Below, piece after piece: positions 13,198 through 45,864 of a DNA stretch of 64,000 nt. A program made the translations under genes and the position numbers. The notes beneath the pieces were generated by a model. The model saw only the letters and a program-made list of their open reading frames with translations, was not told where the DNA came from and did no database searches. How positions within the stretch are numbered: the stretch's first letter is position 1; every line of letters begins with the position of its first letter. Source of the DNA: Limnobaculum xujianqingii (GTDB taxonomy: Bacteria; Pseudomonadota; Gammaproteobacteria; Enterobacterales; Enterobacteriaceae); assembly GCF_013394855.1 (NCBI RefSeq), contig NZ_JABMLK010000002.1, forward strand, positions 930,001 to 994,000. The letters are read 5' to 3'.

Positions 13198-13272
13198 TGG
13201 CTGGGGTACCAGGATTCGAACCTGGGGATGACGGGATCAAAACCCGTTGCCTTACCGCTTGGCGATACCCCA
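13198..13272 (-). tRNA. tRNA-Gln (UUG)
   Basis: Reads TGGGGTATCGCCAAGCGG from its 5-prime end, with a complete cloverleaf and encoded CCA. Anticodon stem ACGGG/CCCGT encloses loop TTTTGAT, giving anticodon TTG. It is the last gene of the promoter-proximal unit 1 (Met-Leu-Gln), directly before the terminator. Confidence 0.97.
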
Positions 13273-13298
13273 CCAGTTATATTGTCGCTGAAGGAAAA

Positions 13299-13383
13299 TG
13301 GTGCGGAAGGCGAGACTTGAACTCGCACACCTTGCGGCGCCAGAACCTAAATCTGGTGCGTCTACCAATTTCGCCACTTCCGC
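13299..13383 (-). tRNA. tRNA-Leu (UAG)
   Basis: An 85-nt class II tRNA starting GCGGAAGTGGCGAAATTGG, with encoded CCA. Stem CCAGA/TCTGG encloses TTTAGGT, giving anticodon TAG, as in E. coli leuW. It differs from the second copy (13909-13993) at one D-loop base (GTAGACGC here versus GTAGGCGC). Confidence 0.97.
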
Positions 13384-13387
13384 AAAA

Positions 13388-13464
13388 TGGTGGCTACGAC
13401 GGGATTTGAACCTGTGACCCCATCATTATGAGTGATGTGCTCTAACCAGCTGAGCTACGTAGCC
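13388..13464 (-). tRNA. tRNA-Met (CAU, elongator type)
   Basis: A 77-nt tRNA starting GGCTACGTAGCTCAGCTGG, with encoded CCA. Stem CATCA/TGATG encloses CTCATAA, giving anticodon CAT. The first pair G1-C72 is matched, and its synteny with metT/metU marks it as the elongator. It is the first gene of unit 1, four bases ahead of the Leu gene. Confidence 0.96.
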
Positions 13465-13504
13465 AAATACTTTTTGCTTAACCTTCAACGGCGTTAAGGA
13501 GCGC

Positions 13505-13533
13505 ATTATGCGGATATGTGTCGTTTTCGTCAA
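13505..13533 (-). promoter_or_regulatory. Stable-RNA promoter for tRNA unit 1
   Basis: On the minus strand TTGACG-N17-CATAAT is followed by a GC-rich discriminator beginning GCGC, typical of stringently controlled tRNA promoters. It lies about 40 bp upstream of the Met gene at 13388-13464 and has a twin at 14115-14143. Confidence 0.8.
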
Positions 13534-13688
13534 GGTTTTGATCTGCTCATCAGGTCGAAAACAGGCAGATTTAAGGATTAAACTATTTGATTGATGAATT
13601 TTTAAACAATAAGTGAAGATAGGGTCAAATTAAAATAGGGATCAAAACAATGGGAGAAAGATAAAGCTGCTAAAAGGAGGGAAGGAAA

Positions 13689-13763
13689 TGGCTGGGGTAC
13701 CAGGATTCGAACCTGGGGATGACGGGATCAAAACCCGTTGCCTTACCGCTTGGCGATACCCCA
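13689..13763 (-). tRNA. tRNA-Gln (UUG), second copy
   Basis: Same sequence as the Gln genes at 13198-13272 and 13809-13883, anticodon TTG, encoded CCA. It is the extra Gln at the end of unit 2 (Met-Leu-Gln-Gln). No clear terminator follows it before the unit 1 promoter. Confidence 0.97.
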
Positions 13764-13808
13764 ATAGGAGATAATTTCCAAAATAACTTACAAATATAAA
13801 CAGAAAAA

Positions 13809-13883
13809 TGGCTGGGGTACCAGGATTCGAACCTGGGGATGACGGGATCAAAACCCGTTGCCTTACCGCTTGGCGATACCCCA
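13809..13883 (-). tRNA. tRNA-Gln (UUG), third copy
   Basis: Same sequence as the other two Gln genes, anticodon TTG, encoded CCA. It is 45 bp ahead of the Gln copy at 13689-13763 in the same transcript. Confidence 0.97.
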
Positions 13884-13908
13884 CCCGAGCATTGTCATTG
13901 AAGGAAAA

Positions 13909-13993
13909 TGGTGCGGAAGGCGAGACTTGAACTCGCACACCTTGCGGCGCCAGAACCTAAATCTGGTGCGCCTACCAATTTCGCCACTTCCGC
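13909..13993 (-). tRNA. tRNA-Leu (UAG), second copy
   Basis: An 85-nt class II tRNA with anticodon TAG and encoded CCA; one D-loop base differs from the copy at 13299-13383. It is four bases downstream of the Met gene of unit 2. Confidence 0.97.
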
Positions 13994-13997
13994 AAAA

Positions 13998-14074
13998 TGG
14001 TGGCTACGACGGGATTTGAACCTGTGACCCCATCATTATGAGTGATGTGCTCTAACCAGCTGAGCTACGTAGCC
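13998..14074 (-). tRNA. tRNA-Met (CAU), second copy
   Basis: Same sequence as the Met gene at 13388-13464, anticodon CAT. It is the first gene of the upstream tRNA unit. The 31 bases upstream of both Met genes are also identical, showing that the duplicated segment includes the leader. Confidence 0.96.
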
Positions 14075-14143: not shown

Positions 14144-14320
14144 CTAGTTTTTTCTCATAACGCACTCAGTTTTGTCTGATTGTTTGGCTAATAACCGATA
14201 TGTCGATAAAAGCGACAAAAAAAGCACCTGTTTGATGAAAGAACGGTTAAAAATGTTTTTTATTTGAGACTGCTGACGAGGTCTCATTTGCTCAATTTCG
14301 TGTTTAAATATAGTCCATTG

Positions 14321-14474
14321 TCGGGAGGGGCTCCCGTGGGGGTCGACTTGGCGTGAGCCAACGAAGTGCCCCTAGGGAGACCAGGCCCGACACGCACTGA
14401 AGCCAAGTACAGATTGTCGTCCGGTCGAGCACAACGTCAATATAAGTATTTTAGATTTTACGACCGGAATATTT
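14321..14474 (+). repeat. Dispersed structured intergenic element, copy A
   Basis: One of three copies of an unrecognised roughly 155-base element, the others being 43366-43524 (minus) and 45709-45864 (plus). The core at 14338-14374 contains GGTCGACTTGGCG, loop GTGA, GCCAACGAAG and TGCCCCTA, which forms a TTGGC/GCCAA hairpin with a GNRA loop. A second stem pairs CCGGTCG (14421-14427) with CGACCGG (14461-14467). No open reading frame spans it. The rest of 14144-14599 has no gene; a TTTGAGACTGCTGAC word at 14263-14277 recurs near copy B. Confidence 0.75.
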
Positions 14475-14537
14475 ACTGAAGCTAATTTATCTGGTTTGTA
14501 AGCAGGCAGGGTTAAAAATATTATTTATTTCCATAGC

Positions 14538-43300: not shown

Positions 43301-43334
43301 AAATTATTCAGGCCCCTAAGGGCCTGAATAATTT
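43301..43334. terminator. Strong stem-loop after afuC
   Basis: AAATTATTCAGGCCC (43301-43315) pairs perfectly with its complement (43320-43334), loop CTAA. The A/T-rich outer pairs give ATTT at the end. It is the probable terminator of the uhp-afu operon. Confidence 0.75.
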
Positions 43335-43365
43335 GAGACTGCTGACAAACCTAATAAATCAGCAC

Positions 43366-43524
43366 CTCCGAATATTCCGACCGTAAAAACAAAGTGCTTA
43401 TATCTGCCCCGATAACGGTCGGTAAATCGCCAGTACTTAGCTATGGAACGCGCCAGGCCTGGCCGGGTTAGGGGCGCTTCGTTGGCTTACGCCAAGTCGA
43501 CCCCAACACCCGTCCCTCCTGTCG
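43366..43524 (-). repeat. Dispersed structured intergenic element, copy B (inverted)
   Basis: Minus-strand copy of the element described at 14321-14474. The core at 43469-43505 reads, on the minus strand, GGGGTCGACTTGGCG, GTAA loop, GCCAACGAAG, CGCCCCTA. The second stem is CCGACCG (43422-43416) with CGGTCGG (43383-43377), different from copy A yet fully paired. The word ATTTGAGACTGCTGAC at 43331-43346 beside it also occurs beside copy A. Nothing else is seen in 43525-43662 except the ybgI leader. Confidence 0.75.
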
Positions 43525-43662
43525 ATTAACTATCTTAAGGTGAAAAATTTGAACTGCCAGACTGTGTCTGCGGATTAAAATGGTTAAAAAACAGATATAC
43601 TTTGGAAAATCATGCAGGGCTACTGTTGCCGGTAAATTTATTTTTGCTTTAAAGAGGTCATC

Positions 43663-45283: not shown

Positions 45284-45390
45284 TTGGGTTATACCCGAAG
45301 AGCTATTTATGTAGCCAGGTGTAACCATAGATGTGGTAGGTAGAACCGGATAGGGTATTGAGAAAGTTTCGTCCGCTAATGGTGTCGAGT

Positions 45391-45600
45391 TTGGCTTTAT
45401 TATCGTGCGGCGGCCGAGCAAGAGGCGTTAAGGCGAACGCCTCCTGCACCTCCGCGCCTTCGCACCCGAATCCAGGTCGCTACGCGACTTCCTTCCTCTT
45501 TCGTTCGGGCTTACGCACCGGCGCAGAGCCGCTCCCGGCGTCGCTGCGCCTCGACCAGCATCCTTGCTGGTCGTGCTACCCTCTCTCAGTCGTCAGCTGA
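45391..45600. other. GC-rich block of nested hairpins after nei
   Basis: About 200 bp clearly richer in G and C than its surroundings. Stems include GAGGCGTT/AACGCCTC (45422-45443), GGCGCAG/CTGCGCC (45520-45550) and CGACCAGCA/TGCTGGTCG (45552-45573, loop TCCT). An 80-codon frame at 45358-45600 overlaps it but has poor protein character, so I treat the block as non-coding. It could be a repeat, a structured RNA, or transferred DNA; I do not recognise it. Confidence 0.45.
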
Positions 45601-45649
45601 ATTCCAGTGCTCTTAAAGGTCCAAAGGAACAGGTCAAAAGATTGTTTAG

Positions 45650-45677: not shown

Positions 45678-45708
45678 GTCTTTGTCTTTGTCTTTTAGCC
45701 AAAGCCCA

Positions 45709-45864
45709 TCGGAGGGAGAGGCCGCCGTTGGGGTCGACTTGGCGTAAGCCAACGAAGTGCCCCTAGGGGGACTAGGCCCGACGCACTTTACAGCTAAGTA
45801 CAGATGGTTTCCCGGCCGAGCACAATGTAAATAAGAGCAGATTGCTATTACGGCCGGAATATCC
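45709..45864 (+). repeat. Dispersed structured intergenic element, copy C
   Basis: Plus-strand copy of the element at 14321-14474. Core 45730-45765 is almost identical to copy A, with the GNRA loop as GTAA. The second stem pairs CCGGCCG (45812-45818) with CGGCCGG (45851-45857), a third sequence variant still fully complementary. With copy B it brackets ybgI-nei in opposite orientation. Confidence 0.75.

Follow-up and report, generated by a model that had tools for sequence, protein, structure and literature searches.

ERIC and REP/BIME sequences resemble the element described here in being dispersed, palindromic, and intergenic, but they are different from the Limnobaculum element in their ends and core. 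The YPAL/RU-2 repeats of Yersinia are about 168 bp long and occur in many intergenic copies. De Gregorio reportedly found in 2006 that transcripts with YPAL in their 3' UTR accumulate to a higher level, and to our knowledge, no transposase has been identified for YPAL-like repeats. In the excerpted text of PMC2229807, the target duplications of YPAL are described as variable (3 to 26 bp) and as spanning a dyad symmetry or lying beside it. A further system to be compared is IS1272, a member of the IS1182 family that targets stem-loops and for which one branch of the model given in the excerpt of PMC5678879 duplicates the stem-loop; IS1272 is reported to replace the stem-loop without duplication.

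We analyzed a 64,000-nt stretch of the Limnobaculum xujianqingii genome (the window, to which all coordinates refer unless stated otherwise), for which an initial annotation had described a structured intergenic element in copies at 14321 to 14474 (plus strand), 43366 to 43524 (minus strand), and 45709 to 45864 (plus strand). Places and strands were all correct, and the 15-base core GGGGTCGACTTGGCG was found three times in the window, each time exactly, with up to two mismatches allowed, compared to 0.06 occurrences expected in shuffles. The two stems that had been drawn were recovered as well, namely, a first hairpin TTGGC/GCCAA with the loops GTGA, GTAA, and GTAA in copies 1, 2, and 3, respectively, and a second stem that does change on both sides between the copies (CCGGTCG/CGACCGG, CCGACCG/CGGTCGG, and CCGGCCG/CGGCCGG). 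Two outer helices, P1 and P2, the latter being the most variable, and the ends of the element were absent from that description.

Copy 1 is a full element with both terminal inverted repeats (TIRs) and extends from 14266 to 14509 on the plus strand, with GAGACTGCTGACGAG at 14266 to 14280 and GGTTTGTAAGCAGGCAG at 14493 to 14509. It is framed by a target-site duplication, GGTTAAAAATGTTTTTTATTT on the left (14245 to 14265) and GGTTAAAAATATTATTTATTT on the right (14510 to 14530). This 21-bp flank repeat is not a hairpin, and its score of 32 exceeds the 99th percentile of the cross-paired control, which is 19. The folded core of copy 1 (14319 to 14392, plus strand; z = -4.55) consists of P1 (14319-14325/14386-14392), P2 (14328-14335/14375-14382), and P3 (14339-14352/14357-14372, with the loop GTGA at 14353 to 14356), and the second stem, P4, spans 14421 to 14467 (14421-14427/14461-14467). 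A Gln-Leu-Met tRNA cluster, partly duplicated in tandem, occupies positions 13198 to 14074 of the window and comprises seven tRNA genes (three Gln, two Leu, and two Met).

Copy 2, also a full element (43336 to 43569, minus strand), was inserted at the foot of a bidirectional intrinsic terminator, which we recognized from its sequence at 43301 to 43335. At the orthologous sites of two sister species (genomes G003 and G001), BLAST revealed a gap of 235 query bases (43335 to 43569) versus 3 in the subject; both of these empty sites harbor a similar hairpin, and the terminator runs straight through. In G002, only one flank of this site aligned, and no target duplication was seen around copy 2. Its folded core lies at 43451 to 43524 on the minus strand (z = -2.39), with P1 at 43518-43524/43451-43457, P2 at 43508-43515/43461-43468, P3 at 43491-43504/43471-43486, and P4 at 43377 to 43422 (43416-43422/43377-43383).

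Copy 3 (45706 to 45864, plus strand) is a standard 159-nt core without recognizable TIRs that scores 168.5 bits with our covariance model R1. Its folded core (45710 to 45783, plus strand) has a z score of only -1.30 and is made up of P1 (45710-45716/45777-45783, with a tandem G-A), P2 (45719-45726/45766-45773, with two mismatches), and P3 (45730-45743/45748-45763, with the loop GTAA at 45744 to 45747), followed by P4 at 45812 to 45857 (45812-45818/45851-45857). Taken alone, copy 3 does not stand out in its folding, as 18 of 200 shuffles did equally well, and the full elements of copies 1 and 2 reach folding z scores of about -2. Single-sequence folding is modest overall; the structural case rests on comparison and not on folding energy.

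The description as a three-copy element holds within the window but not genome-wide. When up to three mismatches were allowed, a 25-base core pattern matched the 4.76-Mb host genome at 120 places, 60 on each strand, versus 0 for the reversed pattern, and model R1, built from 54 copies, gave at least 150 matches, all with E values of at most 1.5e-12. The loci L001 to L057 contained 58 pattern places, 53 of which were kept after dropping L039, L043, L049, L046, and L056. Alignment A2 (55 rows) holds the kept places and the three window copies without L033, and alignment A3 (54 rows) leaves out L012 as well. Of 169 cmsearch matches (112 + 57), we discarded seven of 20.7 to 25.3 bits; the 162 that remained each occupy a different place, and 122 of these score at least 127 bits.

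The element is also carried by Limnobaculum allomyrinae, Pragia fontium, and Leminorella grimontii, and each of the four genomes of the genus contains at least 49 to 50 matches. Seven of the 60 genomes searched, the host included, gave matches, namely, the four of the genus and three of the same family (G018, G024, and G034), and two further genera carry the element (G072; G066 with G483). An order-wide search with model R2 yielded matches in at least 4 of 394 genomes (the host, G066, G483, and, weakly, G026 at an E value of 5e-5), which is a lower bound as 11 candidates per genome were scored; the carriers G001 to G003, G018, G024, G034, and G072 are absent from these matches, being either not drawn or missed. 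The copies belong to a dispersed mobile-element family in Limnobaculum and its close relatives. Copy number, pattern controls, and covariation controls rule out a chance or decayed repeat. A phage or plasmid origin was likewise rejected, with no phage match and a single plasmid match of 40 bases (E = 0.2), and three exact-core matches outside the enterobacteria (Billgrantia, Halomonas, and a Burkholderiales metagenome-assembled genome) had no flanking structure by eye and were put down to chance. A literature search returned no paper combining Limnobaculum with repeat and intergenic, and among the matches listed, none describes the element, as judged by the title or the opening of the abstract.

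Copies with full ends begin with (C)AGAYTGMTGACAAAGTC and finish with its near inverse, GGTTTGTCAGCAGTCTGA. Using a pattern that allowed up to six substitutions, we found a left end in 61, a right end in 48, and both ends in 34 of the 162 host matches; copy 3 and most of the 162 are without two recognizable ends. A locus-specific duplication that scores beyond the 99th percentile of the cross-paired control surrounds 16 of the 34 both-ended copies (about 0.3 expected), the other 18 have none above this level, and a flank-repeat score of at least 24 was reached by 11 of the 34 copies versus 0 of 1,122 cross-pairings. As in YPAL, the duplications vary in length (here up to about 33 bp), and the duplicated flank often comprises an entire terminator hairpin (L104, 33 bp; L110, 31 bp; and, as exact repeats, L124, 26 bp, and L174, 21 bp). 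In distant relatives, the same hairpin was seen by eye on both sides of several copies (L076, L083, L071, L078, L084, and L062). The element moves: its full-ended copies mark it as transposed, MITE-like DNA and not a plain intergenic RNA element. Since 22 of the 23 host TIR matches with up to two mismatches adjoin an element copy when compared by eye, we saw no sign in the host of an autonomous partner having such ends.

The initial annotation had not recognized the family, and indeed, none was found in Rfam: at gathering thresholds, the window contains only tRNAs, and the best score in the region of copy 3 was 20.4 bits, compared to a gathering score of 42. Its statement that the element is neither ERIC nor of the E. 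coli REP type is in agreement with our finding of no blastn match at an E value of 1e-3 or lower to 20,395 E. coli records, with the low-complexity filter on. The kind of element, however, is partly known, since the ends resemble those of YPAL/RU-2 and of an IS1182 insertion sequence. Compared to the RU-2 ends TTCAGACTGCTGACAAAC...ACTTTGTCAATAACCTCA, as given in the excerpt of PMC2759123, the distant relatives L083 and L076 match at 16/18 and 16/18 and at 15/18 and 15/18 positions, respectively. Among host copies, which had been preselected by the end pattern, the left end matches RU-2 at up to 16/18 positions (median, 12; 61 copies) and the right end weakly, at up to 14/18 (median, 11; 48 copies), the background having a median of 9 and a maximum of 12. 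Unlike YPAL/RU-2, the full element of the window measures 234 to 244 bp, contains P1 to P4, and lives in different hosts. When the RU-2 interior was compared to the core of L076, 445 and 323 of 500 shuffles were as good, and the corresponding numbers for window copies 3 and 1 were 436, 399, 412, and 274 of 500. By its interior, the element is not a member of the YPAL/RU-2 family, but it works like one. The Yersinia repeats Kristensenii39 and Aldovae3 could be relatives, going by their description in the excerpt of PMC2847712.

With one mismatch allowed, the end pattern CAGACTGMTGACAAA was present in 65 of 119 genomes of the family and at 10 or more places in 11 of them, compared to at most two places per genome for the reversed control. 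At 10 of 20 end-pattern loci that were fetched, a duplicated terminator was seen by eye around the elements, most of which have other interiors. The TIR MITEs that were seen in other enterobacteria (L194, L195, L201, L202, L203, L209, and L211) have the same kind of TIRs and, by eye, a terminator hairpin on both sides, but unlike the Limnobaculum element, they are about 140 bp long and do not match the core model. The shortest TIR form seen, L198 (G140), is a near-perfect 52-base palindrome of two element ends only. Another TIR element at a duplicated terminator, L208 (G110), has an interior that by eye resembles E. coli RU-3 as presented in the excerpt of PMC2759123, a case of nested repeats.

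In another genus, a 1.49-kb element (L193) was found in which both such TIRs enclose IS1182-type transposase open reading frames in two frames. These match NF033551 (E = 7e-24, 84.5 bits; E = 1e-60, 205.7 bits) as fragments below the whole-protein cutoff of 270, and the hairpins flanking L193 differ from each other. Relatives of the L193 transposase occur in 4 of 119 genomes of the family. The IS1182 relative L216 starts with an exact TIR end, immediately after a terminator hairpin; the one end of L215 is degenerate, and none was seen in L214. The IS1182 family, as represented by L193, and the Limnobaculum element are thus alike in their TIRs and in the terminator hairpins beside the insertion, but the latter encodes no transposase. 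Because no IS1182 transposase was matched in any of the four genomes of the genus, it is only by analogy that we infer such an enzyme to be the mobilizer of the Limnobaculum element. The likeness extends to IS1272, which, according to the excerpt of PMC5678879, also targets stem-loops; however, IS1272 is reported to replace the stem-loop without duplication, whereas the Limnobaculum element often duplicates the terminator hairpin.

Turning to the interior, P1 has arms of the CGTCGGG type, which often contain a tandem G-A mismatch, and P2 consists of eight hypervariable base pairs. We counted 31 P2 haplotypes in 122 host copies, several of them differing at most positions, and 24 of the 31, accounting for 114 copies, pair completely or with a single mismatch. 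P3 follows the layout GGGG-TCG-NN-stem-loop-stem-CGR-AGYG-CCCC, with the class ACTTGGC[GNNA]GCCAA in 96 of the 162 host matches, near variants included, and the class TAGCAGC[TTYA]GCTGC in 27; 39 matches, which are long, short, or altered forms, fall outside the P3 pattern. In other genera, P3 reads AGCGGC[GNRA]GCCGC, and CTTG loops are found in G072. P4 is of the form CCGRYCG/CGRYCGG, its loop measuring about 30 nt. Among the copies with an ungapped class-I P3 (98 of the 122), the loop is GNRA in 86 and GNNA in 97. The joining regions between the helices show conserved sequence, and three unpaired residues (A51, G52, and G54) do not vary across the 31 cross-genus rows.

In long forms (about 230 nt), P3 is followed by a multi-hairpin insertion, and short forms of about 100 to 105 nt are without P2 and P3, P1 being capped directly. 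The multi-hairpin module of L139 is absent at the orthologous element in G001 (L139 versus L042; gap of 73 versus 2); with one species having it and another lacking it in the same element, the module may itself be mobile. One full-length (160-nt) unit and three 105-nt units of the element lie in tandem at positions 1317 to 1863 of L159, and Pragia L046 is another tandem form of the element.

Covariation, seen in the initial annotation among three copies, was also present among further copies and was strong in P1, P2, and P4 and, across genera, in P3. In 55 copies, 177 cells were changed on both sides versus 53 in shuffles, and the covariation score was 0.243, compared to 0.095 for shuffles and at most 0.066 for slid versions. 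For 31 cross-genus cores, the score was 0.413, compared to 0.147 for shuffles and at most 0.116 for slid versions. In the first search, P3 had been fixed by the search pattern itself; across genera, four pairs of its upper helix change on both sides, and 98.8% of cells are paired. On a tree of the 122 host copies built from unpaired columns only, we counted 210 coincident compensated changes versus 1 to 29 in slid controls, many of the 210 being clustered in P2 and not all independent.

Wobbles and mismatches are strand-asymmetric. The cross-genus pairing cells contain 55 G-U versus 10 A-C and 67 purine-purine versus 8 pyrimidine-pyrimidine combinations, and the 122 host copies contain 47 G-U versus 20 A-C and 272 purine-purine versus 6 pyrimidine-pyrimidine combinations. 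Since a cruciform needs both strands, this asymmetry disfavors it, and we infer a fold of one strand, either as RNA or as single-stranded DNA. The original claim had been selection on a folded RNA or cruciform as opposed to a decayed repeat; a compensating fold that is not due to chance is upheld, the cruciform is disfavored, and selection at the level of RNA is unproven.

According to a crude reading-frame call, 143 of the 162 matches are intergenic, 80 between convergent, 60 between tandem, and 3 between divergent genes, and the tandem contexts comprise 24 sense and 36 antisense copies. Pairing was 0.986 in antisense (n = 27) versus 0.977 in sense (n = 22) copies (P = 0.11). With no sense bias and sense copies that are not better paired, selection on the sense strand of host 3' UTRs is not supported. 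In ten orthologous comparisons, 13.1% of paired, 16.9% of unpaired, and 11.9% of flanking positions differed. The P3 class was exchanged in two of these comparisons (L121 versus L081; one L021 copy versus L068), and the P1 dinucleotide GA was replaced by TC in five. It therefore looks as if stems pass between copies through conversion or template switching at hairpins; as whole stems are exchanged at orthologous sites, this process contributes to the covariation. Together with the similar divergence of paired positions and flanks, stem exchange indicates that the fold is not under strong selection at each site. Equal pairing of sense and antisense copies and the swapping of stems in place both point to the element itself, and not the individual host genes, as the probable target of selection. 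Some selection on a single folded strand is nevertheless suggested by the strand bias and by the joining bases that never vary, and the simplest setting for it would be lineages of spreading copies.

With its copy number, ends, duplicated targets, and empty site observed directly, along with an IS1182-type element with like ends in another genus, we think it reasonably probable that the element is a YPAL-like, terminator-targeting MITE that is moved by an IS1182-type enzyme supplied in trans and whose interior, modular and folded, is new and acts as RNA. A nonautonomous MITE of the YPAL kind would have expanded in Limnobaculum and its close relatives, and an IS1182-family transposase would recognize its CAGAYTGMTGACAAA-type ends in trans. 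Insertion would take place at the palindrome of an intrinsic terminator, the hairpin often being duplicated, and each affected gene would keep a terminator. The interior would fold as a single strand into P1-P2-P3 plus P4; transcribed within the 3' end of a gene, it would fold alone, sparing the neighboring terminator hairpins interference, and the RNA fold may shield the end of the transcript from exonucleases. Selection would maintain the fold in the copies that go on spreading and not for every insertion. Because the copies lie at gene ends, we favor RNA over DNA as the form in which the element most likely acts, a single-stranded DNA role of the fold being less probable.

It is conceivable, if doubtful, that the covariation is largely mutational, quasi-palindrome template switching and gene conversion copying one arm onto the other with no selection on the fold. 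Such copying would fit both the stems changed in place between orthologs (P3 classes and P1 GA to TC) and the many divergent P2 haplotypes; yet it is strand-neutral, whereas wobble and mismatch types are strongly strand-biased, and it is at odds with the G-N-N-A loops of 97 of 98 class-I copies and with the three invariant unpaired residues. That the folded strand is DNA, its single-strand hairpins being needed for excision, replication, or integration with transcription irrelevant, we regard as unlikely. The fold is kept equally in sense and antisense copies with no sense bias, and GNNA and CTTG-type loops are stable in DNA too, but IS1182 enzymes are DDE transposases that act on double-stranded ends. 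Although IS1272 is modeled as structure-dependent in the excerpt of PMC5678879, several Limnobaculum copies are short forms without P2 and P3, some of them in a tandem array, and MITEs with the same ends at the loci fetched from G068 and G091 do without this core. A dispersed small-RNA gene or a regulatory RNA family with a function in trans would account for the conserved joining regions and the modular domains (multi-hairpin insertion and P2-P3 deletion), but this is very improbable: we saw no convincing promoter of the element's own by eye, the matches lie 3' of genes in either orientation, and high copy number and target duplications fit a mobile element.

Rather speculatively, the interior of the proposed MITE might be the cargo of a terminator-targeting transposon and represent a class of modular structured RNA that is new: a transcribed tertiary domain with GNRA-type loops as caps, recognized by a protein or by the transcription or translation machinery, that would either tame transcription running across the insertion or aid its own spread. 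A second, larger structured repeat beside copy 3, similar in style, would then be a sister class. The element provides more than 150 natural variants of one fold within a single genome, and it links YPAL-like repeats to a testable transposase family and to a target rule, namely, terminator hairpins that are often duplicated on insertion. Since stems have been swapped between orthologous copies that are at hand for comparison, it is also a test case for telling apart, within strong apparent RNA covariation, the share of selection and that of hairpin or gene-conversion effects.

The second repeat family lies directly 5' of copy 3, at 45355 to 45642 of the window, with the minus strand as the structured strand, and the four genomes of the genus contain 48, 54, 34, and 46 matches to it. 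It has no Rfam match. In 29 copies, its consensus fold comprises 69 pairs, with 134 both-side-changed cells in 19 pairs and 40 of 1,969 cells broken, and the other strand folds less well (-140 versus -163). By eye, this repeat has GTTTCGTCCGC and CGGCCGAG in common with the G072 elements L196 and L197.
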